In this document: in pieces, positions 6,472 to 25,440 of the stretch | Layout of the letters: every line of letters begins with the position of its first letter | Position numbering within the stretch: the first letter of the stretch is position 1 | Assembly: GCA_902579115.1 (NCBI GenBank) | Contig: CACHFP010000006.1 | Span: 1 to 56,815, forward strand | Direction of reading: 5' to 3' | Source of the DNA: an uncultured Pelagibacteraceae bacterium | Lineage (GTDB): Bacteria; Pseudomonadota; Alphaproteobacteria; Pelagibacterales; Pelagibacteraceae | Length of the DNA: 56,815 nucleotides | Made by a program: the position numbers and the translations under genes | The notes under the pieces: generated by a model | Database searches by the model: none | Seen by the model: the letters and a program-made list of their open reading frames with translations, nothing else | What the model was told of the DNA's origin: nothing

Positions 6472-6525
6472 TCAATCATTTTGCCTTAAAATATGCTAGT
6501 AATTTGAAAAAATTAATGAGAAATC

Positions 6526-7269: not shown

Positions 7270-7320
7270 AAAATTATTTATATTGTTTTTTTCTAATTTT
7301 TATTTTAAAGAGACTTTCAA

Positions 7321-7396
7321 GCCCTCATAGCTCAATTGGTAGAGCAATTGATTTGTAATCAATAGGTTCGCGGTTCGAGTCCGTGTGAGGGCACCA
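7321..7396 (+). tRNA. tRNA-Thr (anticodon TGT)
   Basis: 76 nt on the plus strand: acceptor GCCCTCA/TGAGGGC plus ACCA, D-arm GCTCAATTGGTAGAGC, anticodon arm TTGAT-TTGTAAT-CAA with TGT, T-arm CGGTTCGAGTCCG. Many proteobacteria carry a tRNA-Thr in the tyr-gly-tuf cluster; here one is about 0.9 kb away on the opposite strand. Confidence 0.95.
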
Positions 7397-7446
7397 CAAA
7401 ATAAGTAAATCTTAAACTTTTTAATTTATAAAAGATTTTAATATAA

Positions 7447-8037
7447 TCAATTATAATTTCTATTTATAAAATTATTAAAATTTTTTGAGTTTATTATAAC
7501 TCGAAAACTATCTACCCAACCTTTTTTTTTTTCTACATTATTAGACCAATCGGTACACATAATCCTTATTACCGCCCCATCACTAAAACTTGTTTTAAAA
7601 AATAAATCGGTAGTAATTGTTTTACTCAAACCAGTAAGATCGCCTGGGTGAGATTCTAATTTCCCAATTGAAAATTTGAGATTTGGGAACTGACCCATAA
7701 TTTCTTTTTCAACAATTTCTTTTTTTTTTATGCACTCAGAGAGATTTTTGATGTTCATAGCGCCCTCGATACTTTCAATTATAAATTTTTTATCATTATC
7801 TTTCAAATTAACTTGCACATCATCGTAAAGATTGTCTCTTTTTGGTAAAAACACTGTGTAATAATCTTTGAGTTTATACCCATAATATTTTGTCTTATTT
7901 ATTTCATTAATACTATAGTATTTTAAAAGGCTCTCTTTTAAGCTCATTCCTGATATTTGAAATTCTCTACTTTCGTCTGCCTGGGATGGGATTATTAAAC
8001 ATAAGTTTATAATGATAATAGCTAAAAACTTTTTCAT
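7447..8037 (-). CDS. Secreted protein of a local six-member paralog family (copy 1)
   Basis: Function unknown. 196 aa from the ATG at 8037 (a TTG at 8040 is just upstream). It has a signal peptide (MKKFLAIIIINLCLIIPSQA), then the family motif FQISGMSLKESLLKYY directly after the cleavage site, a central KDNDKKFIIESIEG segment, and a C-terminal DGAVIRIMCTDWS motif followed by a hydrophobic/aromatic tail. The same layout recurs in the genes at 8098, 8774, 14157, 15353 and 15943. The promoter at 8044-8072 would start the RNA at the A of the ATG. Probably periplasmic; no enzyme motif recognised. Confidence 0.8.
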   Translation of the reverse strand: MKKFLAIIIINLCLIIPSQADESREFQISGMSLKESLLKYYSINEINKTKYYGYKLKDYYTVFLPKRDNLYDDVQVNLKDNDKKFIIESIEGAMNIKNLSECIKKKEIVEKEIMGQFPNLKFSIGKLESHPGDLTGLSKTITTDLFFKTSFSDGAVIRIMCTDWSNNVEKKKGWVDSFRVIINSKNFNNFINRNYN

Positions 8038-10948: not shown

Positions 10949-11569
10949 TTATTTTATGATATTTTCAATAATATAATTTGATTTAGCATCATTCATTCTT
11001 ATATTTTTAAATGTGTAAAAATATTTTTTTTTTTTTATTTTTTTTATTTTGGAAATAAATAAAAATTGAGTATGAAAAACAAGGAAATTAATATGATTTT
11101 TATTTAGTTTTTGGTTAATTTTACCATTTTTTCGATGACTATGTAATATTAAACCAAGTTTAAAATCTTTTGTGATGCCTCTAATCTTGACTAGATTGCT
11201 TTCTTTAAAAGAAATAAAATAAACATTCTTCTTAAAACCATTACATGTTTCAAGCAATCGATTTAAAGTATTTTTCCTAAGCAGAGGCTTAATCTCAACT
11301 AACACTTTTGTATTTACAGTTAAAATTTTTAAAAGATCACATAGTTTTGTTATCTTGTATTTTTTTAAATTCTTATCAAGAATTGTTCTAGTTTTTTTTC
11401 TGATATTGAATAACCTTCTTAAGCTATAATCATGAAAGCAAATGGGTGTATTGTTTTGGGTAAAGTGAATATCAGTCTCAATATTAAACTTTTTTTTTAT
11501 ACACTCTTTAAATGAAGTAATATGATTTTCTCTAAAGTTTTTTTCAATTAATCCTCTGTGTATAAACAT
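10949..11569 (-). CDS. Glycerophosphodiester phosphodiesterase family protein
   Basis: Probable GDPD-type enzyme hydrolysing glycerophosphodiesters to glycerol-3-phosphate and an alcohol. 206 aa with the catalytic signature at the N-terminus: HRG (residues 4-6), ExD metal ligands (E31, D33) and HD (H46-D47), then a VLVEIKP strand near 105-115. No signal peptide, so cytoplasmic. Somewhat shorter than typical GDPDs (about 240 aa), with a Lys-rich C-terminus. Its ATG overlaps the MFS stop by one base, so the two are coupled. Possible phosphate or lipid salvage; substrate unknown. Confidence 0.75.
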   Translation of the reverse strand: MFIHRGLIEKNFRENHITSFKECIKKKFNIETDIHFTQNNTPICFHDYSLRRLFNIRKKTRTILDKNLKKYKITKLCDLLKILTVNTKVLVEIKPLLRKNTLNRLLETCNGFKKNVYFISFKESNLVKIRGITKDFKLGLILHSHRKNGKINQKLNKNHINFLVFHTQFLFISKIKKIKKKKYFYTFKNIRMNDAKSNYIIENIIK

Positions 11570-12783
11570 TATTTTAATCCCTTGGTTCTATGCAATATGA
11601 TCCATCCAAAAAAGAGCAGTAAAAGAACTGAGGCAAAACCTATCCTTTGATTTTCAGTTATGAAAGTAATGGTTCCTACTAAAAATGGGCCAAAAAAAGA
11701 CGTTAGCTTTCCAGAAGTAGCAAATAAACCAAAGGCTTTATTCTGATCCTCAATTTTTGTTAATTTAGTTATCATGACCCTACTAGCTGATTGTATTGGT
11801 CCTATAAATAATCCCAAGAAAAATGAAAAAATAAAAAAACTAATTTTTGACTGTGTAAAAATGATTAAAATGGAGAAGAAAATAAGACATATCAAGGAAA
11901 AGGAAATTGTTTTTTTTGAATTATATTTATCATTGAAATATCCACCAAAACTAGCACCTATTAAAGCAGCAACATTCATTAAAACAGACATCATTAAAAG
12001 TTCATTTATTGATAGTTTAAATACCCCAACAGCAAAAATACCTCCCATGACAAAAATGGTATTTAAACCATCAGCATAAAGTAGCCGTGCAAACAAAAAA
12101 CGAGTTGTGTTAGTTAGACCATTATTCCAAAGAATCTTTTTTAAACTATTTGATTTTTTTTTGTTTGGTTCAACTTTTTTATATTTTGTTTGACTTAATA
12201 GTGGATAGGAAAAAATGAGAAACCAAAGGGCTACAAAAATGGCAGTGGATCTAAAATTAATTTTTTGATCTAAATCGATTAAATAATTTGATTGAATTAA
12301 TAAAATAATGGTCAAAATAAGTGTGATAATGCCACCTAAATACCCCAGCGCAAAAGCAAAACCAGACACCTTTCCCACATGTTGTTTATCCGCTGAATGA
12401 ATTAATAATGAATTATAGAAAATAGAACTTAGTTCATAAAAATAGTTTGCCAAACAAACTATGATTAAGGTAAATAAAATATATTCAGTAGATGGTTTTG
12501 CAAACCATAACGCTGCTGTAAAAAGTATACATAAATAGGTGCTTGATTTTAAGATAATTGAGTTTAAATTCTTCTTATCAGCTAAATTTCCTAAAAAGGG
12601 TCCGCTTAATGCAATGCATAGTCCTGATACTGAAATGGCCCAACCCCAATATGCCTGGCCATTAACCATATCTTGAACAATTGACTCCGCAAAATAATTT
12701 GAGAAAACAAAAGTTATAATAACTGTTGTAAAGGCAGAATTAGCAAAATCATAAAGAGAAAATTTATAAGATTTTAAATTCAT
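11569..12783 (-). CDS. MFS transporter, UMF1/Atg22-like family
   Basis: 404 aa with about 12 hydrophobic helices. The N-terminal SLYDFANSAFTTVIITFVF segment and the later GPFLGNLADKK loop (A-loop position between helices 2 and 3) are characteristic of the UMF1 group of the major facilitator superfamily. Substrate unknown. It is coupled to the downstream GDPD-like gene by a TAATG overlap; a paired transport and hydrolysis role is inferred. It belongs to the tRNA-Leu island cargo. Confidence 0.75.
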   Translation of the reverse strand: MNLKSYKFSLYDFANSAFTTVIITFVFSNYFAESIVQDMVNGQAYWGWAISVSGLCIALSGPFLGNLADKKNLNSIILKSSTYLCILFTAALWFAKPSTEYILFTLIIVCLANYFYELSSIFYNSLLIHSADKQHVGKVSGFAFALGYLGGIITLILTIILLIQSNYLIDLDQKINFRSTAIFVALWFLIFSYPLLSQTKYKKVEPNKKKSNSLKKILWNNGLTNTTRFLFARLLYADGLNTIFVMGGIFAVGVFKLSINELLMMSVLMNVAALIGASFGGYFNDKYNSKKTISFSLICLIFFSILIIFTQSKISFFIFSFFLGLFIGPIQSASRVMITKLTKIEDQNKAFGLFATSGKLTSFFGPFLVGTITFITENQRIGFASVLLLLFFGWIILHRTKGLK

Positions 12784-12797
12784 GCTAATTTAATATC

Positions 12798-12836
12798 TTA
12801 TAAATCCAGAACCACGATCGCTAAAAGTTTTTTCAT
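12798..12836 (-). pseudogene. Possible remnant of the secreted-paralog signal peptide
   Basis: Minus-strand ATG at 12836 reads MKKLLAIVVLDL then stops. The DNA around the start (AAAACTTTTTTCAT-type on the plus strand: CTAAAAGTTTTTTCAT) matches the first codons of copies 3 and 4 of the secreted paralogs. It may be a broken 5' end left by recombination, though the match is short. Confidence 0.3.
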
Positions 12837-12837
12837 T

Positions 12838-13800
12838 TTAAAGTTTATTACAATTGTACCCTAAATTTGTTAGGTTTAATTTATTACATTGATCTGCAAA
12901 TCTTATTTCATCTATGTACAAAATTTGAACTGTTGACGCTTCCTCATACTTCCATTTAGTTTTCACTTTTTTTCCTTTAGCCTTTATTTGATTTGCTCTG
13001 TCTTGATAAATACCAAAATTTGTTGACGAGAGTGATGAGTTTCCTGGCATTTTATTTTGCATATCTACAATTTTTTTGCCGTTAACCCATATGAATAAAC
13101 TTTTCTTATTTGGTGTATGTACTATTACATCTATCCACTTTCCTAAGTGATTAGAAAAATGTTTTAAATCAAAAAAAGGTGGATCGTGATATTTTTCGCT
13201 TATTTTTCTACAAATATTTTTTCCCAGAAGTTTTTTGCTAATTTTCACGCACTCATTGTCGTGAAGAAAACTTCTTAACTGTACATTTACAATTCCTTCA
13301 GGTGAAATACCCATTCTATAATGTGCACCTTTGCCTTTTCTATGTATTTGATTGAATATAAGTGGCGTATTTGAATGAATATAATTTTTAGGGATTAATA
13401 CGGAAAATGAAAGCCATTTACTTCCCCAATCCCGATACTTTGTTCCTATAAAAACTCGTCGTGCTCCCTCATAGCAATTGTTCCAGTTATTTTTGCTATC
13501 ATTTGATTTCTTGTATATCCCACAATCACCTGGATGACTTTCAAATTTAATAGAAATATTATCATCTCTTGAAATTTCATCTGTGATTATCAAACAGTGA
13601 TCAGGTCCTTTACCATTTTGCCAGCATGAATCCCAATGGTTCATTCTTAATTTTTTACCTTCAAGAACATTATCAGGTAAATTAATTAAACGACTATTAC
13701 CACTACTTTTGCTTCCAGCTAATTCTTTCCACACTATTGGATCAGCATATGAATTATTTAAAAAGAGAAAAAATAATAAAAATATAGACAAACTTTTCAT
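12838..13800 (-). CDS. Secreted polysaccharide-lyase-like (heparin lyase I-type fold) protein
   Basis: 320 aa with a clear signal peptide (MKSLSIFLLFFLFLNNSYA). Visible features of the jelly-roll lyase family: SIKFESHPGDC and RRVFIGTKYRD in the first half, WLSFSVLIPKNY, FNQIHRKGKG, then WIDVIVHTPNKKSLFIWVNGKKI and NFGIYQDR near the end. This pattern (chain-length-setting strands, WVNG, FGIYxxR) is typical of the heparin-lyase-like family of polysaccharide lyases. Eight or so cysteines suggest disulfides in the periplasm. Substrate not predictable; catalytic residues not assigned. Island cargo. Confidence 0.6.
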   Translation of the reverse strand: MKSLSIFLLFFLFLNNSYADPIVWKELAGSKSSGNSRLINLPDNVLEGKKLRMNHWDSCWQNGKGPDHCLIITDEISRDDNISIKFESHPGDCGIYKKSNDSKNNWNNCYEGARRVFIGTKYRDWGSKWLSFSVLIPKNYIHSNTPLIFNQIHRKGKGAHYRMGISPEGIVNVQLRSFLHDNECVKISKKLLGKNICRKISEKYHDPPFFDLKHFSNHLGKWIDVIVHTPNKKSLFIWVNGKKIVDMQNKMPGNSSLSSTNFGIYQDRANQIKAKGKKVKTKWKYEEASTVQILYIDEIRFADQCNKLNLTNLGYNCNKL

Positions 13801-13867
13801 CGATAAAATTTAAATTATCAGTATTAAATATTTATGAAAAGTAAAAATTATCTTACCAAATTTTCCC

Positions 13868-13895
13868 TCTCTGTCTTCTAGTTATCTTCTAGTCT
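13868..13895. repeat. Tandem TCTTCTAGT motif, third copy
   Basis: 28 bases matching 10353-10380 with two differences (TCTCTGTCTTCTAGT... versus TCTCTATCTTCTAGT...). Each site contains the word TCTTCTAGT twice, 11 bases apart. A degenerate version is at 14134-14161. Possible integrase arm-type sites. Confidence 0.5.
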
Positions 13896-13968
13896 GCACA
13901 AATTAATTTGCCTTGATTTCTAATGCTAATTGAAAGGTTAAATAATAAAATAAGGATTGATAATTTTT

Positions 13969-13998
13969 TGAGACTACCTGAGACTGTCTGAGACTCTA
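13969..13998. repeat. Three TGAGACT words at 10-base period
   Basis: TGAGACTACC, TGAGACTGTC and TGAGACTCTA follow one another, one helical turn apart, 20 bases before the att-like core. The arrangement resembles protein-binding arm sites beside a recombination core; the binding protein is not known. Confidence 0.5.
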
Positions 13999-14018
13999 AT
14001 CTTACTGTATCCTTGGGG

Positions 14019-14160
14019 TTTTAAGTCCTTTGTGTCTACCAATTTCACCACGAGGGCACGTCGTTGTTTTTATTGTTAATGTTAATATATTAATACACAA
14101 GAGTTTTGAAGAAGTAAAAAAGAATTATTTTCCGTCTCTATCTCCTAGTATGTCCACTAG
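14019..14160. repeat. Right copy of long direct repeat with displaced tRNA-Leu 5' half
   Basis: 14019-14057 equals the first 39 bases of tRNA-Leu (minus strand) up to the anticodon loop; 14019-14071 is identical to 10237-10289. Beyond that it diverges, and its outer end overlaps the stop codon of the gene at 14157. It cannot make a functional tRNA because the 3' half is missing. Together with the left copy it delimits about 3.8 kb. Confidence 0.85.
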
Positions 14161-14741
14161 TTAGCTTCTTCATTCCTCCATTTTAAAAAATAATTTGGTG
14201 AAATTGCTACAGAAAGATTGTCTTCAAAATTCCGTTTCTTTTCTGTAACTTTTGACCAATTCACACACCAAACTCTAAGTGAAGAACCATCTTTCAAATC
14301 GAAATCACTTACATAGGCTATACTTTTAAGATCATCAATTTTATATTTGAAATCATATTCATTTAACTTTAATTTTTTATAATTAGATTTAATAGAGTCC
14401 ATAATTTTCTTTTTTTTAATCAAACAATCATTAAAATTTTTTTTATAAAATGTGCCACCTGATAATGAGTGTATTATATATTGATTATCGTTTTTTTTAA
14501 GATGAAATGATAAAACTTCGTATTCTTTTTGATTTTTGATTTTGATACCATCTAACAAATAATATTTATCACTTTTAGGATAAAAAGTTTTCTTAAAATT
14601 CTTTATTTCACTCTCGTTATAATATTTTAATAAACTATCTCCAATGCTTATACCTTCGATTTGAAAGTCTTTGATATCGTCAGCCTGCGATGGGATTGCC
14701 AAGTATAAGCTTAGAGTAATAATTGTTAAAAGTTTTTTCAT
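14157..14741 (-). CDS. Secreted paralog family protein (copy 4)
   Basis: Function unknown; 194 aa. Signal peptide (MKKLLTIITLSLYLAIPSQA), N-motif FQIEGISIGDSLLKYY, central KKNDNQYIIHSLSGG, conserved cysteine in CLIKKKKIM, and C-terminal DGSSLRVWCVNWS (the DWS motif with Asp replaced by Asn). The closest N-terminal match is to copies 1 and 3 across the island. No own promoter seen: it follows the Sel1 gene by two bases in the right-hand operon. Its stop codon lies within the att-like repeat. Confidence 0.8.
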   Translation of the reverse strand: MKKLLTIITLSLYLAIPSQADDIKDFQIEGISIGDSLLKYYNESEIKNFKKTFYPKSDKYYLLDGIKIKNQKEYEVLSFHLKKNDNQYIIHSLSGGTFYKKNFNDCLIKKKKIMDSIKSNYKKLKLNEYDFKYKIDDLKSIAYVSDFDLKDGSSLRVWCVNWSKVTEKKRNFEDNLSVAISPNYFLKWRNEEAN

Positions 14742-14743
14742 CT

Positions 14744-15325
14744 TTAGACTGGTTTTGATTTTAACAATTGGATAAATAAATCTCTTAACTTTTGCATTTC
14801 TTTTGATGGGTTTTTATTATATTGATTTATTTCTTGAAGCAAATCATCAGGATCTGCTCTGCATATGTTGTCTCGGTCAAAAAATTGGGACGCGCTTAAG
14901 AGCCAAAATCTTTTTGCTTCATTCAAATTTTGATCTAAATCGGCTAAACCTCCATAGTAAAAGAGACCCATATTATAACTTGCAATAGAGCATCCTAAAT
15001 CTGAGGCTTTTTTGTTCCACCCTATTGCCTCTTCATAATCTACTGGCGCACCATGAGTTCCTTCAAAATATACCCATCCGACAGTAGTCATCGCATTTAC
15101 TTGATTTTGAGCTGCTGCTTTACTTAAATAATAAATAGCTTTGTCAGTATCTTGTTCAATATTATAATCAGAAAATCCATCTAGATACATGTGTCCTAGA
15201 TCATTTTGAGATATCGCGTCTCCCCGATCAGCCTTTTTTTTTAAAGTTGTATGAAAATCGTCTGCATATAAATTTGAAAAATTAAAAGTGATTAATATTA
15301 ATAAAATATAATTAAACTTTTTCAA
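14744..15325 (-). CDS. Secreted Sel1-repeat (TPR-like) protein
   Basis: 193 aa with a signal peptide (MKKFNYILLILITFNFSNLYA) and about three Sel1-like repeats: SQNDLGHMYLDG, AMTTVGWVYFEGTHG and ASYNMGLFYYGGL, each followed by an A/W-rich second helix. Such solenoids act as protein-interaction scaffolds, often in the periplasm. It sits between two secreted paralogs in the same operon and could be their assembly or interaction partner (inference). Confidence 0.75.
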   Translation of the reverse strand: MKKFNYILLILITFNFSNLYADDFHTTLKKKADRGDAISQNDLGHMYLDGFSDYNIEQDTDKAIYYLSKAAAQNQVNAMTTVGWVYFEGTHGAPVDYEEAIGWNKKASDLGCSIASYNMGLFYYGGLADLDQNLNEAKRFWLLSASQFFDRDNICRADPDDLLQEINQYNKNPSKEMQKLRDLFIQLLKSKPV

Positions 15326-15352
15326 ATTGCCCTCTCATTTTATTTTTTTCTT

Positions 15353-15928
15353 TTAGTTATTTATTATAAATTTCATAAATTCGTGTGTATTAACAGATAC
15401 TTTTAAATTTGCATTCATTGAACTTTCTTTTGTAAAATCGTAACAATTTATATTAATGGACTCAAGATTTGGGTAGGGCTTTAGATAATTTTGTATCCCA
15501 TAAATTATTGACTTTCCTGTCTTGTCCATATCACTAGCAAATTTAGTTATTTGGCTATCATCAATTTTAAACTCCTTTTTTATGTAGGACTGAATTTCTT
15601 TTTTTAATTTATTACACTCATCCAAATTTTTATAATAATAAATTCCTGTAACACCAACTATTTTAAAATTTTTATCATTCTTTTTAACGCTAACGTTTAA
15701 TTTATCGTATTGTTTAAGTTCGTGTATTTTTTCAAATCTATATGTTGTAAATTGATCGGTTTTATACTCAAATCCTGCATCAATAGATCTGATTTTTTCT
15801 TCAGTTGCATAATCTAAAAGACTTTCACCAACACTAATTCCCTCAATCTCAAAATCCTCTAAATTATTAGCTATCGAATTATTAACAACGCTAAATAAAA
15901 TAGATATTATTAAAAAAAAATTTTTCAT
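15353..15928 (-). CDS. Secreted paralog family protein (copy 5)
   Basis: Function unknown; 191 aa. Signal peptide (MKNFFLIISILFSVVNNSIA), N-motif FEIEGISVGESLLDYA, central KKNDKNFKIVGVTGI, conserved cysteine (LDECNKLKKEI), and a C-terminal INCYDFTKES where others have C-x-D-W-S (Trp replaced by Phe). It follows copy 6 by 14 bases in the operon. Confidence 0.8.
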   Translation of the reverse strand: MKNFFLIISILFSVVNNSIANNLEDFEIEGISVGESLLDYATEEKIRSIDAGFEYKTDQFTTYRFEKIHELKQYDKLNVSVKKNDKNFKIVGVTGIYYYKNLDECNKLKKEIQSYIKKEFKIDDSQITKFASDMDKTGKSIIYGIQNYLKPYPNLESININCYDFTKESSMNANLKVSVNTHEFMKFIINN

Positions 15929-15942
15929 AAAATTACTTTTGA

Positions 15943-16518
15943 TTATTTATAAACCTCTGTAAGAAAATCATTAAATTCATCTGTAATGATAGAGACTTTT
16001 AAATTGTCAGTATAGCCTGACTCCGTTGACCAATCCATACACTCAACCATTATGAAGCCACTACCATCATTCATTTCAAATTGATGGTGACTGCCAACAG
16101 ATTTTCCAGATTTATCACCAGGGTGAGGACTTTTGCCCCAATTATTATATTTTGCATTATTTTTAAAAATTACTTTTAGTTCGTCCACTATTTTTTTTTC
16201 ATTTTTATAACAATCCTCAAAGTTTTTATTATCGTATAAAATTTTTCCGTTCATTGCTTTTATTATGTAATTTTCATCATTAGTCTCAACCTCTACTGAC
16301 ACTCCTTCATAAGGACCAGTATCTAATAGCTTAGAAATTGCACTAAATCTATTATCTTCATACATAGATCTTTTACTATCTAATTCACTTTTACTAAAAT
16401 GATTAATCGCGCTATCTCCAATGCTAATTCCATTAATTTCAAACTCATTAATATCATCACTCATTAAATGGTTAATGGTAATCAATGACATAACGACTAT
16501 AAAAAAAATTTTTTTCAT
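15943..16518 (-). CDS. Secreted paralog family protein (copy 6)
   Basis: Function unknown; 191 aa. Signal peptide (MKKIFFIVVMSLITINHLMS), N-motif FEINGISIGDSAINHF, central TNDENYIIKAMNGK, a PHPGDKSGKS loop similar to SHPGDLTG in copy 1, and C-terminal DGSGFIMVECMDWS. It begins three bases after the PrsW-type protease stop, so co-translation with that protease is likely. This makes the family a possible substrate or partner of the protease. Confidence 0.8.
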   Translation of the reverse strand: MKKIFFIVVMSLITINHLMSDDINEFEINGISIGDSAINHFSKSELDSKRSMYEDNRFSAISKLLDTGPYEGVSVEVETNDENYIIKAMNGKILYDNKNFEDCYKNEKKIVDELKVIFKNNAKYNNWGKSPHPGDKSGKSVGSHHQFEMNDGSGFIMVECMDWSTESGYTDNLKVSIITDEFNDFLTEVYK

Positions 16519-16521: not shown

Positions 16522-17367
16522 TTAAAAAAGGATAGCTGACATAACTATTAAAGTTACTAAAATAGCAGCTGATATATATGAATATAAAACTTCGATATTT
16601 TGTACACGAGCTTTATCTATTGACTCCGTAATTTTTTTTAACTGCTCTCTTCTATAATAGTAAATAAGACTAATCATAAAAATGACAGATAAAAGAGGAA
16701 AAATACTTGCCGCTCCATAGTAATTATACGCGCCGTGAAAAACTATTGGTAAAGATAAAGATAGAATTAACATTATCCTTCTTTTAAAAATATTTCTTTC
16801 TTCAAATAAATTTAAACTCAGTAACCACCCCATTAAAACTCCAAAACCCATATGCATAACAAGAGGATAATATCTTGTTTTAACCATTTCTATTGTCCAT
16901 GCATTTTCTAGACTTGAGCTAGATAAATAGCCTACATTTTCTATTGCTGCATAGCCAAGACCTATAGCGGCACCATAAACAATTGAATCCATTGGTTCAT
17001 TTAAAGCTGATAGCCTGACACAAAAAAATATAAGTAACGCAAATTTTATTCCCTCTTCCAGGAAAGCTGCTCGAAAAAAGCTTTGAAAAGCATTTTCTGC
17101 TAAAGGAAAAGTAGCTCCTGCTACTTTATAACCGCCATCAATATATTCATTGTAAGCGTTTATATCTAAACCTAATAAAGGACCTAAGTGATCCTCAGCA
17201 AGCATTATGAATAGTTGCAATGGCAAAACTATAGATGCGCCTAATAAAAATGAAGAAAATAAAAATTTACCTGGTTCAGGAAATCTATCTGATTTCCAAA
17301 CTGCAATTCCTAGCAATATAGGTGGTAGTACTGTTGAAATATAAAGAAAGGAAGGATCGGTAAACAT
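16522..17367 (-). CDS. PrsW-type intramembrane metalloprotease
   Basis: 281 aa, about eight transmembrane helices. Motifs of the PrsW/CPBP (Abi) glutamic membrane-protease group: EEGIK (E104-E105, K108), IENVGY (E143-N144), MHMGFG (H172) and FHGAYN (H211, N215). Family members cleave membrane-bound anti-sigma factors or process peptides; no sigma or anti-sigma pair is visible here. Start overlaps the upstream stop (TAATG). Its location between a secreted vWA-like protein and secreted paralogs suggests an envelope-signalling or processing role (inference). Confidence 0.8.
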   Translation of the reverse strand: MFTDPSFLYISTVLPPILLGIAVWKSDRFPEPGKFLFSSFLLGASIVLPLQLFIMLAEDHLGPLLGLDINAYNEYIDGGYKVAGATFPLAENAFQSFFRAAFLEEGIKFALLIFFCVRLSALNEPMDSIVYGAAIGLGYAAIENVGYLSSSSLENAWTIEMVKTRYYPLVMHMGFGVLMGWLLSLNLFEERNIFKRRIMLILSLSLPIVFHGAYNYYGAASIFPLLSVIFMISLIYYYRREQLKKITESIDKARVQNIEVLYSYISAAILVTLIVMSAILF

Positions 17368-18281
17368 TATTGAATATCTAGTTGTTTAATCACCTCATAA
17401 TTATCAACACCAATGTAATTAAATAAATCTTCCCAGAGTTTTACTAGAGAACTTGATAGACCATCTCTAGTTTCATAATCATGATTAATATATAAAATTG
17501 TTACTTTTAAATTTTTTAAAGTTTGTTTATTTGGTTTTCTATCATCTATATAATTCTTTACTTTTTTATTTTTTATTAAACTTGCAAATGATTTACATTT
17601 ATTTGGTTTTAAAATTTCTAAATTAGTTTTGCAGTGGTTATAAAATGAAAATCTTTTAGAAAATTGCATTAAATCTGAAACAATAATTAATTCTCTCTCT
17701 GGATAGTCAGGAGTAAAATCTACTTTTGCTTCTCTTAAAACATGAAAGAAATATTCAAATATTAAACTTTGTTTTCCTTCGATATCATTTGCTTTAATAA
17801 AATCATTTTCAAATTTCGTGTTTAATATCTTCCATGCATCAAAAACCTCTTTAATTTGTTTATCGCCTTCACATCTGCTGTTTGTTTCTTCTCCTGGGAA
17901 TTTTGATTTATTCCCTGATTTCGCTCTACACTTAGAATACATAATTAATTGTGATTGTGGTGGGGTATCATCAATCTTCATGTAAGATATTTTGTGATAA
18001 GGTGGTGTAGTTTTAATTAATGTATCACCAAATATCCTACCTTTAATCCAATCAACCTGCGCAAGTTTTAATGGAGAAGTAAAATCAACTAAAAAGAATT
18101 TGTGTCCTAATTTTGAGTTCAAAGGGCAAAATTGATTTGAGCTTTTTGGATTTAAAACTATTGGATTTTTGCTATCTTTCCAACATTCAGGATAACCAGT
18201 TGGAAAATTTTTTGCATTAATAATACTTGTTGTTAAAAAAGAAAAAGTTAGTCCTATTAAAAAAATCTTAAATTTCAACAC
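17367..18281 (-). CDS. Secreted protein with a von Willebrand A / MIDAS-like signature
   Basis: 304 aa, hypothetical. Signal peptide at the N-terminus (FLIGLTFSFLTTSIINAK). FFLVDFTSPL (D66-F-T-S) followed much later by ELIIVSDLMQ (D203) and RFSFY resembles the DxTxx...SDMxQ layout of secreted or anchored vWA-like domains with a metal-ion site. Cysteines at the N-terminal region (ECW, FCP) and in YSKC may form disulfides. The start is GTG at 18281 (or TTG at 18278), overlapping the upstream gene by 14 bases; no ATG fits the signal peptide. Assignment is motif-level only. Confidence 0.6.
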   Translation of the reverse strand: MLKFKIFLIGLTFSFLTTSIINAKNFPTGYPECWKDSKNPIVLNPKSSNQFCPLNSKLGHKFFLVDFTSPLKLAQVDWIKGRIFGDTLIKTTPPYHKISYMKIDDTPPQSQLIMYSKCRAKSGNKSKFPGEETNSRCEGDKQIKEVFDAWKILNTKFENDFIKANDIEGKQSLIFEYFFHVLREAKVDFTPDYPERELIIVSDLMQFSKRFSFYNHCKTNLEILKPNKCKSFASLIKNKKVKNYIDDRKPNKQTLKNLKVTILYINHDYETRDGLSSSLVKLWEDLFNYIGVDNYEVIKQLDIQ

Positions 18282-19764
18282 TATATTTCTCCCTTATAAT
18301 CTCAATTTTTTTATTAACTTCCTCATTTATTGAGTTGATCTGATTGATATAGTCATTTGCCTCCTTTTGAATTTTATTTTGATACTCTTCAATTTTCTTT
18401 TCAATCTGATCTTTGTTTAAATATAAAACTACAAAATCTCTATATACGTTTTCGGGGTTTAATTTTTCTGGTCTCATATCGTAATAACGAGTTTTTACTT
18501 TACCGCTGTCGTCCTTCCAATATTTTGGTTCTGGGGTAGTTCTATACATTCCGTTTATTGATCTATATTCGCCAATTATATGATCCAAATCTTCATTAAT
18601 TTTAGAGGCAAAACGTCTGTAACCTTCAAACGTATTTTCTAAAGCAGTTATGTTTGGTACCCAGGATTTTCTTAAAGTGTTAGATATAATTGAGTCCCTT
18701 TTTTCACCAGTATTTTTAATCTCATCTTTAAAAATCATATTTACTTCAGTAGATAGATGTTCTCTTATCCTATTAATTTCTTTCTTGTCATTATTCTTGC
18801 CTTTACCAACTTCTCCATATCCTGGATATTTGTCACCAAATAAATACCCGTCTATTAATGATGCGATTGCGAATCCTAGTCCTATAAAAACTAAAGTAAA
18901 AGATGTAAATGACAAATCAACTGTCCATGGAAATAATGCATTACCAGTTTCTAATGATGTTTCAGCTGTCCCCATTATCAAATCTTTTATATTTGCTCCA
19001 GTCTTTTCATGAATAGATCGATAAGCTCCCAAAGACCAATTTAGATAAGAAATAAAGATTGCATATAAGATAATAGAAATTTTAGAAATTATTTTTCTTA
19101 AGCTGTTAACATGATGAAAATTTTTTAAGGCAAAAAAACCGAATGCAAAAGAAACAAACACGTTTAAACCTGCAACACCAGCTGCGACCGCTAAGCCTTC
19201 TTTTTGACCGCTACCCATTGCTGGTGCAAGTAAATTTCCATTAACCTGTAATTCGATTATAAATAAAATAGCTATTACTGCTATACCAATTATTATATTT
19301 AAAGTTGTCAAAGATCTAGGTTCACGATCTAATTTATTTTCTAATTTAAAATTTCTAACTTCATTATTATGAGTATTAAAAGAACTTTTTAAATTTGACA
19401 GCCGGCCTTCAGCCGCAGTTAGAGTCCGTTGGATTCTATTTTTGAAGTTATCAATATAAAAATGTTTTTGACCTAATTTAGCCGTACTATCTATAATTTG
19501 ATTTTTAATAGAATTTAGATAGGCTACACTTTTTTCTATTTCTTCGTTTCTCATTTGATCCGAGGAAACAATGGCTTCATTTTCACAATTTGAAAAAGTT
19601 TCAGACTCAGGTCTTGGTAGGTTATTCTTACCATCAGTTGTGGCTCGATCTTTAAGCTTGATGTTGTCTTCTATCTTTGCAACTTTTGAACTTTTAAATT
19701 CATAACTCATTTTATTTTTTTTTAAATTCCTCTTAATTGTATTTATTAATTCTTTTAATTTCAT
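18268..19764 (-). CDS. Four-helix membrane protein with long cytoplasmic coiled-coil ends
   Basis: Not recognised. 498 aa: a polar N-terminal 150 residues with helical heptad-like stretches (65-145), four transmembrane helices at about 153-172, 190-212, 224-244 and 286-306, then a soluble half with a predicted coiled coil from about 450 to the end (QIEKKIEEYQNKIQKEA). An internal ATG at 19710 (MSYEF) is an alternative start. It overlaps the vWA-like gene, so the two are probably partners; the topology suits a scaffold spanning the inner membrane. Confidence 0.7.
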   Translation of the reverse strand: MKLKELINTIKRNLKKNKMSYEFKSSKVAKIEDNIKLKDRATTDGKNNLPRPESETFSNCENEAIVSSDQMRNEEIEKSVAYLNSIKNQIIDSTAKLGQKHFYIDNFKNRIQRTLTAAEGRLSNLKSSFNTHNNEVRNFKLENKLDREPRSLTTLNIIIGIAVIAILFIIELQVNGNLLAPAMGSGQKEGLAVAAGVAGLNVFVSFAFGFFALKNFHHVNSLRKIISKISIILYAIFISYLNWSLGAYRSIHEKTGANIKDLIMGTAETSLETGNALFPWTVDLSFTSFTLVFIGLGFAIASLIDGYLFGDKYPGYGEVGKGKNNDKKEINRIREHLSTEVNMIFKDEIKNTGEKRDSIISNTLRKSWVPNITALENTFEGYRRFASKINEDLDHIIGEYRSINGMYRTTPEPKYWKDDSGKVKTRYYDMRPEKLNPENVYRDFVVLYLNKDQIEKKIEEYQNKIQKEANDYINQINSINEEVNKKIEIIREKYSVEI

Positions 19765-19837: not shown

Positions 19838-20050
19838 CTAGTCACCATCCTTTCCTGCGCTCATTAATGCAGCTCCAATAAATCCAAAGATCATTGGAGA
19901 AAATCTTGAAGCAGCACCCATAAAGCTAGTAAGGTTTACTCCAGCCCAAGACATTGCAAAGTCTGCTATTGCGAAGGCTATTAACAAGAGGCCTAATACC
20001 TGCAAACCTGATGTAGAACTAGTCTCATTTTGTACTTTTGCTTTTTTCAT
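19838..20050 (-). CDS. Small membrane protein heading the operon
   Basis: Not recognised. 70 aa from the ATG at 20050 (MKKAKVQNETSSTSG), preferred over an in-frame ATG at 20077 because AAAGGA lies six bases upstream of 20050 and nothing SD-like precedes 20077. Two hydrophobic helices (about LQVLGLLLIAFAIADFAMSW and MIFGFIGAALMSAG) rich in Gly/Ala, similar in style to small pore or phage-holin-like proteins, though that is only an impression. The hairpin at 19804-19828 follows it, so it may be expressed above the rest of the operon. Confidence 0.65.
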   Translation of the reverse strand: MKKAKVQNETSSTSGLQVLGLLLIAFAIADFAMSWAGVNLTSFMGAASRFSPMIFGFIGAALMSAGKDGD

Positions 20051-20108
20051 TTTTTTTCCTTTTGTTTGTGTTCTCATGATTTAGATATAGTTGTTCTTGT
20101 AAAAAATT

Positions 20109-20178
20109 CTTGTCCACCTTTTATAATAAAATTGGACAATTAAATTTAAGTCCAAAATTTAAAATAATATTGGACAAG
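20109..20178. promoter_or_regulatory. Double inverted-repeat operator-like region between divergent arms
   Basis: Four copies of TTGGACAA-like words: TTGTCCAC (20110-20117, inverted), TTGGACAA (20132-20139), AAGTCCAA (20148-20155, inverted) and TTGGACAA (20170-20177). They form two inverted pairs, each with 22 bases between half-site centres, the pairs being 38 bases apart. The region separates the minus-strand operon starting at 20050 from the plus-strand genes starting at 20211. The regulator is unknown. Confidence 0.55.
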
Positions 20179-20198: not shown

Positions 20199-20204
20199 TA
20201 TAAT
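20199..20204 (+). promoter_or_regulatory. -10 element of the gene at 20211, leaderless spacing
   Basis: A perfect TATAAT ends seven bases before the A of the ATG at 20211, so transcription should start at the start codon. No good -35 is placed 17 bases upstream; TTGGAC at 20170-20175 is 23 bases away. This could fit activator dependence through the operator-like repeats. Confidence 0.4.
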
Positions 20205-20210: not shown

Positions 20211-20444
20211 ATGAAAAAAATAATTTTAACAATTTTAATAATTTTTTTTTCAAGCTATTTATATGCTTCGGAAATGAATGAGCTTTTAGATCAAAATTAT
20301 AAAATTATCAAAACCGAGTTAATAAAATTCAATCAAGACGCCTATAAAATTTTTACTTTAAAAAATGGTAAAAATATTTTCATATGCTCTGTCAAATTAG
20401 AGGACATGAACGGTCTAATTGGATCTGAATGCATAAAACCTTAA
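20211..20444 (+). CDS. Small secreted hypothetical protein
   Basis: Not recognised. 77 aa: signal peptide (MKKIILTILIIFFSSYLYA) and a 58-residue mature part with two cysteines (IFICSVK and SECIKP) that could form a single disulfide. First gene of the plus-strand arm, four bases before the lipoprotein gene. Confidence 0.6.
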   Translation: MKKIILTILIIFFSSYLYASEMNELLDQNYKIIKTELIKFNQDAYKIFTLKNGKNIFICSVKLEDMNGLIGSECIKP

Positions 20445-20448: not shown

Positions 20449-20649
20449 ATGAAAAAAATTGTAATTATTATATGTTTTAGTTTTTTGATGATATCGTGTG
20501 ATCGCGCTGAGCCATTAGTAAAAAAATCTAAGACTGGCATTTGTCATAAAGCTGGAACAAGATATTATGATCAAACAAAATACTTTGAAAATTTCTCATC
20601 AATTGAAGATTGTATCAAAAGCGGTGGAAGATTACCAAAAAGAAGATAA
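20449..20649 (+). CDS. Small lipoprotein with GGRLPK-type mini-domain
   Basis: 66 aa. Signal sequence ending in a lipobox (FLMISC, lipidated Cys17), then a compact domain GICHKAGTRYYDQTKYF ... FSSIEDCIKSGGRLPK. This Cys-x-x-x-G-(S/T)-x-Y-Y ... C-x-x-S-G-G-R-L-P-K pattern is a short module I recognise from the C-termini of some bacterial nuclease-like and secreted proteins; here it stands alone on a lipid anchor. Function unknown. Confidence 0.65.
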   Translation: MKKIVIIICFSFLMISCDRAEPLVKKSKTGICHKAGTRYYDQTKYFENFSSIEDCIKSGGRLPKRR

Positions 20650-20691: not shown

Positions 20692-22155
20692 ATGTTTAAA
20701 AATTATAAAAAAGTAAGCGTATTAGTTCTTACAAGTATCTTTCTATTTTCATCAGTCGAAGCTAACTGGATAACAAAGAAAAGCGACAAATCTAAAGAAG
20801 TTATAAAACAGGAGAAAAAACAAAAAACTGAATGGATAAAACTTAAAAAAAAAGAAATTAAAAAAAATAAAGAGGAATTTAAAAAAGAAGAAAAAAAAAT
20901 CACAAATGAAGTTAAATCCTGGATAACAAAAAAAAGTAAAAGTAAATTTTTAAAAAGTATTGAAGAGCTGCCTGATGGTGCGATATATTTTTCTGGATAT
21001 AGTGACGGTAGTAATGATTTATTTTATGGTTATGTTGTCCCTGATCAGAACTCAGAGTTAGTAAATGGGTTTTACAAAACTAGTAAGGGTGTAGGTTTTT
21101 TTAGTGATGGAAAAACAATTTGCCAGATTGGATCTACAGTTTTGATCGTAGATTCCGGTGAATTAACTTCAAGGGTATCAGGGAATTGTTCGAATGGAAT
21201 GAAATTCGCAGGTAAAACATCTCAAACAAAAGATAAAGGTTGGGGGCAAGCAAAAACAAATGATGGTAAACAAAAGTTAAATTTTGAATTTAATGTTAAC
21301 AAAAAAGAAATTGCAAAACTGTATAAATCTAATATCGTAAAAGAAAAAACAATTGCCAGAAACGTTCCAAAAAATAAAACTAAAATAAACTTAAAGCCAA
21401 ACGGAAAATATTACGCATTACTAATAGGTAATTCAAATTACAACGATAACGGATGGGATGATTTAGTGTCACCTGTTAACGATATAAATTCAATTAAATT
21501 AGTTCTAGATAGAAGTTATAAATTTGAAAAAATTATGATGGTTAGAGATGGAACAAAGAATGAGATTTTTAAAGCTTTTCAAGATCTATCAAAACTTACT
21601 ACAACTAACGATTATGTTTTAGTTTACTACTCTGGTCATGGGATGGTTAAAGCAGAACAAGCTTATTGGATACCAAAAGATGGCAGCTTAGAATGGGGTA
21701 ATGGTGACTGGATTAATATAAATGAATTAAATATATTTCTCACCGAGATTAAAGCCCATCATTTAGCGCTAATGGTTGATTCTTGTTTTGTAGGTGGAAA
21801 ATTTAAAGGGATTAATGTACTTGATCTAGAAGATAATAACGACCGTCAAACTATAAACAAGAATCTGCAAGATAATTTAAATTTAAGATCAAGAAGTGTC
21901 TTATCCTCTGGCAGTATTGGTCAAGTAAGTGACACTGCTCCAAACTCAAAAAATTCAATATTTGCTTTATCATTTTTAAATATGCTCAACATTTCTGAAA
22001 AACAGTCTATTCCTATGAATATGAGATCAATAGCATTTAATATACAAAATGCATTTGCTGGAAATTATAACCAAAAACCTTATTACTACCATCCTGATAC
22101 ATGGAGGCATCTTGGTGGTGATTTTATTTTTATTCCAAAAAAAAACCTTAAATGA
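20692..22155 (+). CDS. Secreted caspase-like (C14) protease
   Basis: 487 aa. Signal peptide cleaved after VEA (residue 24), a lysine-rich linker with two WITKK motifs (W26 and W77), a MORN-like or beta-rich middle (residues about 90-215: DGAIYFSGYSDGS, GFFSDGKTICQIGS), then a caspase-hemoglobinase domain from about 240: YYALLIGNSNY, SPVNDINSIKLVL, VYYSGHGM with catalytic His316, and LMVDSCFVGG with catalytic Cys365. Such prokaryotic caspase homologs cleave after basic residues. Its stop overlaps the start of the next protease gene, so the two are coupled. Confidence 0.88.
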   Translation: MFKNYKKVSVLVLTSIFLFSSVEANWITKKSDKSKEVIKQEKKQKTEWIKLKKKEIKKNKEEFKKEEKKITNEVKSWITKKSKSKFLKSIEELPDGAIYFSGYSDGSNDLFYGYVVPDQNSELVNGFYKTSKGVGFFSDGKTICQIGSTVLIVDSGELTSRVSGNCSNGMKFAGKTSQTKDKGWGQAKTNDGKQKLNFEFNVNKKEIAKLYKSNIVKEKTIARNVPKNKTKINLKPNGKYYALLIGNSNYNDNGWDDLVSPVNDINSIKLVLDRSYKFEKIMMVRDGTKNEIFKAFQDLSKLTTTNDYVLVYYSGHGMVKAEQAYWIPKDGSLEWGNGDWININELNIFLTEIKAHHLALMVDSCFVGGKFKGINVLDLEDNNDRQTINKNLQDNLNLRSRSVLSSGSIGQVSDTAPNSKNSIFALSFLNMLNISEKQSIPMNMRSIAFNIQNAFAGNYNQKPYYYHPDTWRHLGGDFIFIPKKNLK

Positions 22156-23432
22156 ATAAAAAATATTTAATTTTACTTTTAGTAATATTTCATTTTTCTT
22201 TAACGAGAGCTGAAATAAGTAGTAAATTTGTTATAGACTCAAAAATAAAAGGAACTGAGACTATAATAATTGCGGTTACTCCTCTTACTGACAAAAAACA
22301 AATAAAAGATTTAAAAGTTAATGTAGAGTCTAATAAAAATTACTTAAATGTTATTAGGCCAAAGTTGATTAGCAAAAATAGAAACCGCCCCCCTAGAACG
22401 AAATTTAAAGGCCCATCTGAAGAAATTTATAAAGAATACGCCAAAAGTGTAGTTTTCATAGGAAATTATAAAAGAAAAGGTTCAGGCTCTGGATTTATAA
22501 TTAATTATAAAGGAAAAAAAATAATAACGAATTGGCACGTCGTTCAAGGTTCTAAAAAAGTAAGAGTTTGGTTAAAACCTGAAAATTTAGTGAACGAAAG
22601 ATACATGTTGGATAATTTAGACTCTTATGAAGCTAGTGTATTAAAGATAGATAAAGAAAAAGACTTAGCTTTGTTAGAAGTAATTGGTCTCCCAAATAAT
22701 ATAAAACCTGTGCAATTTGGTGATTATAAAAATGTAAATGTTGGCGAAACAGCTTTTGCTATTGGTCATCCAGGAGACTTGATCTGGAGTTTTAATAGTG
22801 GAATGGTAAGTCAGTTAAGGCAGGACTATAAATGGAAATATAATGACTCTCATCACTTTGCAGATGTAATACAAATTCAGGTTCCTATAAATCCAGGAAA
22901 CTCAGGAGGCCCATTATTTAATAAAAATAAAAAATTAATTGGAGTAAATACCTTTACTGCAGAAGGTGAAAATCTAAATTTTGCTATATCAGTGAATGAT
23001 ATGATTGAATTTTTAAACAAACCTGAAAAGAAAATAAAAGAAAATAAATATATTCAAAAGAAAAAGAAAGGTCCTACCTGGATAACTAAAAAAGATAAAA
23101 AAGTTAAAAAAAACAATATAGATAAAAAATATCCTAATGCTCAAAAAGGAGATATGAATGAAAATGGGTCTACTGATATTTGGTTTTTAGATGAAAACAA
23201 AAATGGAAAAATAGATACAGCTGTTATAGATGCAAATGAAGATGGAATCATTGAAACAATAGCATTTGATGAAAATGAAAATAAAAACTTCGAAATTTTT
23301 CTTTTTGATGATGACTTAGATGGTAATGCTGACAGGGCTGAAATTGACGAAGATGATAACGGCACTTCTGATGTTATGGCATACGATAATGATCAAGATG
23401 GAAAATGGGATAGATATGAAAAAATATCTTAG
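22152..23432 (+). CDS. Secreted trypsin-like serine protease (S1C-type) with acidic C-terminal repeats
   Basis: 426 aa. Signal peptide (residues 1-20), protease domain about 95-295 with the triad visible: NWHVV (His129), KDLALLEV (Asp171) and NPGNSGGP (Ser251). No PDZ domain. A Lys-rich linker with TWITKK (W310) leads to about 90 residues of Asp/Asn-rich repeats (DMNENGSTDIWFLDENKNG, DANEDG, DDDLDGNAD, DNDQDGKWD) resembling calcium-binding thrombospondin-3/EF-type loops. Overlaps the caspase gene by four bases. Likely periplasmic or surface-exposed, possibly calcium-stabilised. Confidence 0.85.
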   Translation: MNKKYLILLLVIFHFSLTRAEISSKFVIDSKIKGTETIIIAVTPLTDKKQIKDLKVNVESNKNYLNVIRPKLISKNRNRPPRTKFKGPSEEIYKEYAKSVVFIGNYKRKGSGSGFIINYKGKKIITNWHVVQGSKKVRVWLKPENLVNERYMLDNLDSYEASVLKIDKEKDLALLEVIGLPNNIKPVQFGDYKNVNVGETAFAIGHPGDLIWSFNSGMVSQLRQDYKWKYNDSHHFADVIQIQVPINPGNSGGPLFNKNKKLIGVNTFTAEGENLNFAISVNDMIEFLNKPEKKIKENKYIQKKKKGPTWITKKDKKVKKNNIDKKYPNAQKGDMNENGSTDIWFLDENKNGKIDTAVIDANEDGIIETIAFDENENKNFEIFLFDDDLDGNADRAEIDEDDNGTSDVMAYDNDQDGKWDRYEKIS

Positions 23433-23443: not shown

Positions 23444-23914
23444 TTACTTATTTTTATTATCAATTGTAAGTTTAATTTTAAGAATTTTATTTTCTAGGTC
23501 CGTTATCGCCTCAAAAATATCTTTTTTTTCTATGGGTGATATTTCATCACCCCTGTCACCTTTAGGATCCTTGGCATTTTTAACAAGTTCTGTAAGTTTT
23601 CCATGCAGTATTGTAGATTTAACCAACATTTCATTAATATCTTTATTTTCAAAATTATCAGATTTTTCCAACAACTGAGCAATCATATATTCATAAGAAG
23701 TTAATAATGGAGGTGCCTTACCTTTTTGTATACAGGCTTGGTCGAGTTTAAATGAATCGTTATGATCTATTTGTTGAGGTAAATCTGGATTGCTACATTT
23801 TCTAATATATGAAGAGGTTTTGCCAATTGCTTTATTGATCTCTTCATCAGATAAAATCTTTAATACTTCCATTAAACCGCTCTCTATGGAGGCGTTTTTT
23901 CTAATCTTTGCCAT
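23444..23914 (-). CDS. Hypothetical cytoplasmic protein
   Basis: Not recognised. 156 aa, no signal peptide or membrane helix. The N-terminus (SGLMEVLKILSDEEINKAIGKTSSYIRKCSNPD) looks like a short helix-turn-helix-type segment of the kind that ends in SYxRKCSNPD, followed by an all-helical C-terminal half (KKDIFEAITDLENKILKIKL). It could be a small regulator; it is the only soluble candidate DNA-binding protein near the operator-like repeats, but this is speculative. Convergent with the trypsin-like gene and divergent from the channel gene. Confidence 0.6.
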   Translation of the reverse strand: MAKIRKNASIESGLMEVLKILSDEEINKAIGKTSSYIRKCSNPDLPQQIDHNDSFKLDQACIQKGKAPPLLTSYEYMIAQLLEKSDNFENKDINEMLVKSTILHGKLTELVKNAKDPKGDRGDEISPIEKKDIFEAITDLENKILKIKLTIDNKNK

Positions 23915-23958: not shown

Positions 23959-25440
23959 ATGAATTTAATCAAATATAAATTTATTATTTTGCTTTTTGTA
24001 AGCACTATATTTTCAAACAATTTTCAAGCAAAAGCTGATTTATTTCAAAGATCAGCGGTTGAGCTTGAATTTAATAATCGGATTTTTAAAAACACCGTAA
24101 TTAAATCATACCCTTTTCAGAAAACAAGAAGTGATATAGGTTTGTTCTGTGATTTTGCTTGGGACAAAAACAATAAACAAATAATAATCAAAAGAGACAA
24201 AAAAAACTATCCAGTTATAAGATTTTCTTTATTTGATAAGAAAAATTTTCCTCAAGGTGTCTCAGTGTTTAAATATAATAATATAGATTTATCCAAGGTT
24301 ACTGACAAAAAAATTAAAGAATTATTAAAAAAAAATAAGGAAGCAAAAATTACTTTAGATAATAATAAAGTAATTAATCTTAAGCCTGACATTTATGACT
24401 ATAATGATATTAAGCTTTCAAGTTTTAATTTAGATTACATAAATAACATAGACACTAATAAAGGTTTACTTGAAATATCATTCCGTGCAGATTTTACAAA
24501 TAAAAGACCAGAATTAAATAAATTTGCTAAAGGTCTACTCGAAGATGATTTTTATGAAGCCTTCTCTGACAATGGACCATATCCGATTAGAGAAGTAGAG
24601 ATAAAAGAATATAAATATGATGTTGACATTAGAAAAGGCTTAAATACTCCAGACATCGCTAATAGGTCTCAAATTGATTTTACTTACGACAATGGAGAAG
24701 TAAGAACTGTACGTCAAGAGTCTGGGATAGGACAATTCAGACAAACATTCGACTTTAAAAATTTTCCTTTTGATAAACAAATATTAAAAATTAAAATTGC
24801 CTCTGGAGCTAGAAGCACAGCAAATATTAATGAAGCTTGGCCAAAAACTGGAAAGGGAGCTGTTCATTTCATAACTCCTGCTGAAGGAGCTTTTTTAGGA
24901 TTAGAAAATTATTTAATTAATGTATCAGAAAATTATTTAAAAGAATGGACAGTAAAAAACATAAACATTGAAAGTGATGAAATAATAGTTGAAAATTTTT
25001 ATAACAAATATTTAGATAAAACTCATTCTTACAATGAAAATTCAATCGACTTAATATTAAACATTGAAAGAAATTCAGCTCATTATATCTATAAAATTAT
25101 AATACCTATCTTTTTAATTTTAAGTATAGCCTGGTATGTATTATGGATACCTACAGATAAACTTGAAGCAAGATTAACTACGTCTATTGTAGCTTTGCTA
25201 GCTTTAATAGCTTATAATTTTGTTTTTTTAGATGACATACCAAAATTAAATTATCTTACAGCTTTAGATAAATATATTTTATTATCATATATTTGGTGTT
25301 GTATTCCAACATTCATGAGTATCGGTTTTAGTAAATTTATAGTTAAGAATCAGAGAAAAATTATTCTTATAAATAAAAAGTTAAGAACTTGGCTTGGATT
25401 TTTTTACTTATTAATTACAATTCAAATATTTAGTTTTTGA
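23959..25440 (+). CDS. Pentameric ligand-gated ion channel (Cys-loop superfamily, GLIC-like)
   Basis: 493 aa. Signal peptide to about residue 26, an additional N-terminal domain of roughly 110 residues, a beta-sandwich ligand-binding domain from about 135 (LLEISFRADFTNKRPE) including the signature FPFDKQ loop (269-274), and four membrane helices: M1 about 377-397, M2 about 405-425 (EARLTTSIVALLALIAYNF), M3 about 437-459 and M4 about 475-492. Glu403 sits where GLIC has its -2' glutamate, suggesting a cation-selective pore. Ligand unknown. Separate unit behind TATAAT at 23930-23935. Confidence 0.85.
   Translation: MNLIKYKFIILLFVSTIFSNNFQAKADLFQRSAVELEFNNRIFKNTVIKSYPFQKTRSDIGLFCDFAWDKNNKQIIIKRDKKNYPVIRFSLFDKKNFPQGVSVFKYNNIDLSKVTDKKIKELLKKNKEAKITLDNNKVINLKPDIYDYNDIKLSSFNLDYINNIDTNKGLLEISFRADFTNKRPELNKFAKGLLEDDFYEAFSDNGPYPIREVEIKEYKYDVDIRKGLNTPDIANRSQIDFTYDNGEVRTVRQESGIGQFRQTFDFKNFPFDKQILKIKIASGARSTANINEAWPKTGKGAVHFITPAEGAFLGLENYLINVSENYLKEWTVKNINIESDEIIVENFYNKYLDKTHSYNENSIDLILNIERNSAHYIYKIIIPIFLILSIAWYVLWIPTDKLEARLTTSIVALLALIAYNFVFLDDIPKLNYLTALDKYILLSYIWCCIPTFMSIGFSKFIVKNQRKIILINKKLRTWLGFFYLLITIQIFSF

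Follow-up and report, generated by a model that had tools for sequence, protein, structure and literature searches.

Two conserved inverted-repeat dyads between divergent gene arms of a SAR11 chromosomal island as candidate operators of a phage 186 CII-like activator

The window, meaning the whole stretch of 56,815 nucleotides from an uncultured Pelagibacteraceae bacterium that was analyzed here (contig CACHFP010000006.1 of GCA_902579115.1), makes up one of the 23 contigs of a 1.0-Mb assembly. Two gene arms diverge from a gap that is flanked by the ORF 19838-20077 on the minus strand and the ORF 20211-20444 on the plus strand and contains two dyads (Table 1). In addition to the genes listed in Table 1, the minus arm also holds a Sel1-repeat protein and small paralogues. 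Paralogues of ~190 aa that look secreted form an expanded family around these islands, in the window at 14157-16518 and, for example, in the related locus L093 at 11380-15480. The 66-aa protein of the plus arm matches the C-terminal end of the phage family phrog_37565 (E 3.7e-15). In window-type loci, the gene for the CII-like protein described below is adjoined by a gene for a ligand-gated ion channel-like protein (23959-25440 in the window). In the single-cell genome locus L006 the caspase gene is present as two ORFs (6001-7492), and the remaining locus looks intact.

Table 1. Positions of the dyads, the putative promoter elements and the genes of the two arms in the window.
Feature	Position	Strand	Remarks
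PrsW-family membrane protease	16522..17367	-	minus arm; E 1.9e-25 (Pfam)
304-aa protein	17367..18281	-	minus arm; no Pfam match
498-aa protein	18268..19764	-	minus arm; no Pfam match
Small membrane protein	19838..20077	-	outer ATG at 20077, but translation likely begins at 20050 (70 aa)
Putative -10 box TATATC, minus promoter	20084..20089	-	20 bp from dyad 1; 4/6 columns invariant in 8 loci; assigned from conservation
Dyad 1, TTGTCCAC-N14-TTGGACAA	20110..20139		half-sites 20110-20117 and 20132-20139; proposed operator of the minus-strand promoter
Dyad 2, AAGTCCAA-N14-TTGGACAA	20148..20177		half-sites 20148-20155 and 20170-20177; proposed operator of the plus-strand promoter
Putative -10 box TATAAT, plus promoter	20199..20204	+	21 bp from dyad 2; 1/6 columns invariant (8 loci)
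77-aa small protein	20211..20444	+	ATG at the inferred +1 (leaderless)
66-aa small protein	20449..20649	+	second ORF of the plus arm
Caspase-domain (Peptidase_C14) protein	20692..22155	+	plus arm; E 4.8e-18 (Pfam)
Trypsin/HtrA-like protease	22152..23432	+	plus arm
156-aa 186-CII-like protein, proposed regulator	23444..23914	-	3.3 kb from the dyads

Both dyads are 30 bp long and have the form xxGTCCAA-N14-TTGGACxx; two of the half-sites are exact, and the other two are one and two bases off a perfect inverse. An earlier note on this DNA had described two inverted pairs with a within-pair spacing of 22 bp and an offset of 38 bp and had considered such an arrangement unlikely to arise by chance. 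By the half-site coordinates this geometry is correct for the window, and the judgement on chance agrees with the behavior of the pattern TTGTCCAN{10,18}TTGGACAA, which has one match in the window and none in 100 shuffles. Single half-sites with at most one mismatch are not enriched in the window (69 vs 76.9 expected), so that the unusual feature is the pairing. In the 1.0-Mb assembly the 16-base dyad with at most three mismatches occurs at 10 places, compared to three for the reversed pattern; at most two mismatches are found at the window's two dyads only, the other eight places having three. A background scan of 397 genomes, in which the spacing was one base shorter, gave matches in 42 genomes, many of them with a single TGGTCCAGC...CTTGGACAA sequence.

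Eight related loci were gathered by a scan for the caspase gene. Seven of them (L002 to L008) hold the homologous gap, which L009 does not reach, and together with the window they formed a conservation alignment of eight rows. The half-sites contained 22 invariant columns out of 32, compared to 2 out of 36 in the stretches between them, and the pairwise identity was 92, 86, 87, and 88% for the four half-sites vs 54, 46, and 48% for the intervening stretches. Half-sites that drift like their surroundings, the result by which the earlier note wanted to see its observation refuted, were thus not what the eight orthologous gaps revealed: the half-sites are conserved and the spacers are not. The within-pair spacing is 22 in all eight loci, whereas the pair-to-pair offset varies (35 in L004, L007, and L008, 37 in L006, and 38 in the window, L002, L003, and L005), which shows that the rigid unit is the pair and not the quartet. 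Single half-sites are degenerate in three loci (half-site 2 in L003 and L008, half-site 4 in L004). Overall, we regard the dyad observation as real and as functional in character.

On its outward side each dyad is followed by a TATAWT-like box at a distance of 20-21 bp and by an ATG at 32-33 bp, with a mirrored arrangement on the two arms. When the units of both arms from the eight loci were read outward (n=15, omitting the degenerate plus unit of L004), they aligned as GTCCAA-N14-TGGACAAG-N~19-TATAWT-N6-ATG, and TGGACAAG and the ATG were invariant in all 15 units. As the arms of the window carry different genes, this common layout belongs to the promoter. A sigma-70 promoter scan found no ordinary promoter at the putative -10 boxes of either arm, nor was a terminator-like site found. 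Transcription probably starts near 20077 on the minus strand and near 20211 on the plus strand. If the A of the ATG at the presumed start is taken as +1, the half-site centers lie at -36.5/-58.5 on the minus arm and at -37.5/-59.5 on the plus arm.

The ATG of the unit opens unrelated genes in several arms, namely those of the 77-aa protein, of an 88-aa lipoprotein (L007, L008, L093), and of another 79-aa protein (L087, L088). In L009 a weak unit (E 0.0057) has an ATG that opens the gene of a 211-aa TerB-like protein, and in L090 a 132-aa gene starts two bases beyond the position of the unit ATG. In the case of the 70-aa membrane protein an inner ATG is the probable start, because in L092 and L093 the frame does not begin at the outer one, and a leaderless start is not assumed for this protein. 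Among 23 dyads listed by hand outside the window and L008, an ATG lay at offset 32, counted from the edge of the operator, in eight cases, compared to a mean of 1.03 per offset, with the reservations that two of the eight (L087, L088) came from a model containing the ATG and that in two L108 cases a later ATG is the start of the called gene. Judging from these sequences, several targets appear to be leaderless, with the ATG at or a few bases from the transcription start.

We searched for the unit with a sequence-only model, choosing a full-length match at E<1e-6 as cut-off. In the window's own genome the units of dyad 1 and dyad 2, both of them training sequences, were matched with E 1.1e-14 and E 1.9e-8, respectively, and further matches were partial, starting from E 0.006. 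Some match at E<=0.01 was found in 135 of 298 family genomes, and a full-length match at E<1e-6 in eight (G000, G006, G058, G189, G191, G195, G225, and G384). Matches with E values of 1e-5 to 1e-2, which concern most of the 135 genomes, were treated as chance and dropped. G000 is the window genome, G189 and G225 appear to hold the model loci L002 and L003, and all eight strong-unit genomes carry the whole locus. G189 and G195 have an extra unit on another contig, and the gene behind it is present in 2 of the 298 genomes, which are these two; in G006 a second unit lies 4.5 kb from the first. The exact sequence GTCCAA-N14-TTGGAC was found at nine sites in seven of the eight window-type genomes, G384 having sites with one mismatch only, and was absent from 12 genus controls and from G378, G206, G426, and G338. 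With one mismatch, it occurred at one or two places in 10 of the 12 controls, many of these representing one recurring sequence. Exact sites in viral contigs (49 stretches) were set aside, as most will be chance matches given 15 fixed bases.

Homologues of the 156-aa protein were present in 30 of the 298 family genomes at E<=1e-5. Those with at least 61% identity occurred in eight genomes, exactly the eight with a strong unit, but this co-occurrence of site and regulator is confounded because both lie in one locus. The protein family is sparse, being found in 17 of 148 genomes of an order sample and in 7 of 241 genomes of a class sample, with the window genome counted in both. The window protein itself matched neither PF06892 (Phage_CP76; curated cut-off 26 bits) nor PHROG 101. 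Among 22 aligned homologues, 14 reached E<=0.5 with PF06892, the model of the phage regulatory protein CII, the best value being 7.5e-9; the score was above the cut-off for L115 (36.1 bits) and below it for L104 (24.4) and L090 (23.9). Eight reached E<=0.1 with PHROG 101 ("CII-like transcriptional activator"), the best of them 7.4e-9. As its relatives match PF06892 and the window protein does not, we describe it as 186-CII-like and not as a formal family member.

The structure predicted for the 156-aa protein had a pLDDT of 82.6 and a pTM of 0.48. In a Foldseek comparison with the PDB the first eight rows were chains of 186 CII (6vpe, 6vli, 6vmh), with E values of 0.009-0.28, probabilities of 0.98-1.00, and TM scores of 0.34-0.39. 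The match rests on the N-terminal domain (~75 residues, Z 7.5 in VIA-align), and VIA-align ranks unrelated long-helix proteins above 186 CII. An hhalign comparison of the protein with 186 CII alone gave a probability of 0.3%, a profile search of PDB sequences did not find 186 CII, and a viral structure library contained no match at E<=0.001. The earlier note had proposed that this small protein be tested for DNA binding, and as a candidate it is supported by the predicted fold and by the relatives.

The upstream regions of 30 homologues were then read for dyads, and many contained dyads of the common frame. These were present in G035 (AGTGAAAT...ATTTCACT), G234 (AATGAAAT), G466 (ATGTCCAA...TTGGACAT), and G697 (TAGTCCAA...TTGGACAG). 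Dyads of the GTGAAA type preceded the CII-like gene in G083, G418, and G322/G162/G232, and with a mismatch in G170; hybrid dyads GTGAAA...TGGAC occurred in G378, G206, G426, and G075. By eye we also spotted CCGTAGG...CCTACGG (G212/G180), TAGTCC...GGACTA (G454), and TGCCTAA...TTAGGCG (second copy in G195). Under a scoring rule that was set after the regions had been viewed and that left out five GC-rich groups, 10 of 19 AT-rich non-redundant homologues had an upstream dyad with at most one mismatch and a spacer of 13 or 14, and nine had none. No other spacer from 8 to 23 exceeded 1 of 19 homologues. Such dyads were present in 5 of 181 control regions for spacer 14 and in 0 of 181 for spacer 13; the five matches belong without exception to CII islands (L106, L108, and L114) and may be targets. 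GC-rich homologues mostly lacked a dyad; one of their six regions, that of G623, has one with at most one mismatch. L108 and L114 contain four dyads each, in intergenic gaps. A noisy shuffle-based search for any inverted repeat upstream of 24 CII-like groups gave its highest summed Z values, 5.7, 6.1, and 5.0, at arm distances of 18, 20, and 22, but Z also reached 4.3 at distance 24 and 17 of the 24 single P values were >0.05; the scoring rule above, although set later, gives the clearer picture. In some relatives the dyad center lies ~16-45 bp from the ATG of the CII-like gene itself. In the gap before the window's own CII-like gene no dyad was found, so that autoregulation is not visible here.

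The half-site broadly follows the recognition helix, SY[ILV]RKC occurring with GTCC, SHFRKC with GTGA, and SF[IL]RKC with the hybrids, with the exception that GTCC is also found with other helices (L128, L130, L134). The exact sequence GTGAAA-N14-TTTCAC was present at 13 sites in seven of nine SHFRKC-type genomes and at none in 12 genomes without a CII-like match. Twelve of the 13 sites are located on the CII contig within ~8 kb, and the site in G222 lies on another contig. When both exact dyads were pooled, 14 of 17 genomes with the matching CII type contained a site, compared to 0 of 24 chosen controls. In L103, L104, L105, and L107 the gene immediately after the CII-like one is PrsW-like (checked with Pfam for L103). 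The GTGA-type CII-like genes of L108 and L109 lie near pilin-like gene clusters with N-terminal methylation motifs. In IMG/VR, six contigs encode a CII-like relative with 29-31% identity. One of them, L145, carries at 51-7740 an integrase, a small terminase subunit, an AAA_25 protein, and the CII-like gene and looks satellite-like; a dyad with one mismatch lies near the CII-like gene. The relatives on these contigs show that CII-like proteins occur on phage- or satellite-like elements. Window and satellite-like elements share dyads near CII-like proteins, whereas no integrase, small terminase subunit, or AAA_25 protein was found among the 20 window proteins scanned with Pfam.

The closest known system is that of phage 186. 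In the annotated CII site of U32222, ATGTTTG-N13-CAAACAT, which lies over the start of cII, the dyad ends 19 bp before CATAAA, which in our reading is the -10 box. A 2014 paper on 186 CII reportedly stresses the 20-bp spacing of the half-sites. According to PMC6593788, the inverted repeat recognized by 186 CII at pE has its halves two turns apart, at -38/-58, and the protein touches alpha and sigma of RNA polymerase; PMC7708051 describes its degradation by FtsH and RseP. The dyads of the window resemble the pE site in having inverted half-sites that are, by sequence, about two helical turns apart, and in the distance of the near half-site from the -10-like box (20-21 bp vs 19 bp); the 156-aa protein is predicted to share the order of an HTH domain followed by a helical part. 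The differences are that the sites belong to a host chromosomal island instead of a phage switch, that the window has two operators back to back with divergent promoters, that the half-site is GTCCAA and not ATGTTTG, that the spacing is 2-3 bp longer (20 bp between 7-mers in 186, 23 by the same measure here), that several targets here appear leaderless, and that the sequence similarity of the window protein to 186 CII is barely detectable. The CII protein of phage lambda binds direct TTGC repeats one turn apart and contacts the -35 region. According to PMC7708051 it acts as an activator by which the repressor is primed and lysogeny is established, and it is unrelated to 186 CII.

With a probability of about 77%, we consider the two dyads to be operators of the 186-CII-like activator encoded at 23444-23914, which would switch on a symmetric bidirectional promoter in the outward direction. 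The sites, their conservation, their fixed geometry, and their tracking with CII-like genes, all read from genome sequences, point to this assignment together with the predicted fold of the regulator; binding, activation rather than repression, the transcription starts, the operons, and any signal are inferred. The CII-like protein would sit on one DNA face of each dyad, whose half-sites are separated by about two helical turns. Both promoters would lack the usual -35 box, the near half-site covering the -35 zone and the far half-site lying at about -58, and RNA polymerase would be recruited outward on both sides. In this way the caspase/trypsin arm, yielding two small proteins, the caspase-domain protein, and the trypsin/HtrA-like protease, would be switched on together with the PrsW/498-aa arm, yielding the small membrane protein, the 498-aa and 304-aa proteins, the PrsW protease, the Sel1-repeat protein, and the small paralogues. 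The idea of the earlier note that the pairs are operators bound by a dimeric or tetrameric regulator is well supported, whereas nothing was found that would speak for envelope stress as the signal. New with respect to the earlier note are the fixed, activator-like distance of each dyad from its own promoter, the recurrence of the unit at other places, and the flexible distance between the pairs.

The same protein could act at the dyads as a repressor of both divergent promoters. Some relatives have their dyads so close to the start of the CII-like gene that repression would be natural, but the dyads of the window and of the orthologous gaps stop 20-21 bp short of the -10 box, which corresponds to the position of 186 CII at pE, and the scan found no ordinary sigma-70 promoter at the -10 boxes. 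We therefore regard repression as unlikely. It is quite improbable that the dyads serve a different DNA-binding protein whose gene lies elsewhere, the CII-like gene being a mere neighbor. The locus is complete in every one of the eight strong genomes, so that linkage alone could yield the match, and the window protein is only distantly CII-like; against this stand diverged CII-like genes in other surroundings, whose dyads keep the spacing but differ in their half-sites, and the extra units that G189 and G195 have outside the main locus. An explanation of the repeats as RNA structures, as terminators, as recombination sites, or as products of chance in an AT-rich gap is hardly credible. Inverted repeats are common in such a stretch (68 pairs in 501 bases), but the pair did not arise in any of the 100 shuffles, such repeats would not be expected to show the fixed spacing, the drifting spacers, and the constant distance from the -10 box, and a terminator-like site was not found.

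An activator related to 186 CII that is used by a chromosomal island remains the best description of the locus. The cleavage of 186 CII by a membrane protease, together with the PrsW-type gene in the window locus and the PrsW-like gene following the CII-like gene in four loci, makes control of the level of the CII-like regulator by PrsW a lead suggested by analogy. A wider reading, which is tentative and as a whole rather doubtful, is that SAR11 chromosomes carry CII-like master activators that are exchanged with satellite-like integrative elements and have their own operator codes (GTCC, GTGA, and others), each switching on a whole island via leaderless promoters of the operator-32-ATG type; the window type would be a protease module (caspase, trypsin, ion channel) set by PrsW acting on the CII-like protein and perhaps responsive to phage. 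Among the papers listed from the open-access literature, to which our search was largely confined, there was no report of a chromosomal CII-like activator family.

SAR11 bacteria are among the most abundant bacteria of the ocean. 186 CII is known as an activator of phage lysogeny, and chromosomal relatives with readable operators would point to island-level regulation in SAR11. Such a family would allow genes of unknown function to be tested as regulons, and its members would form a natural series from which the reading of DNA by CII-type proteins could be decoded.
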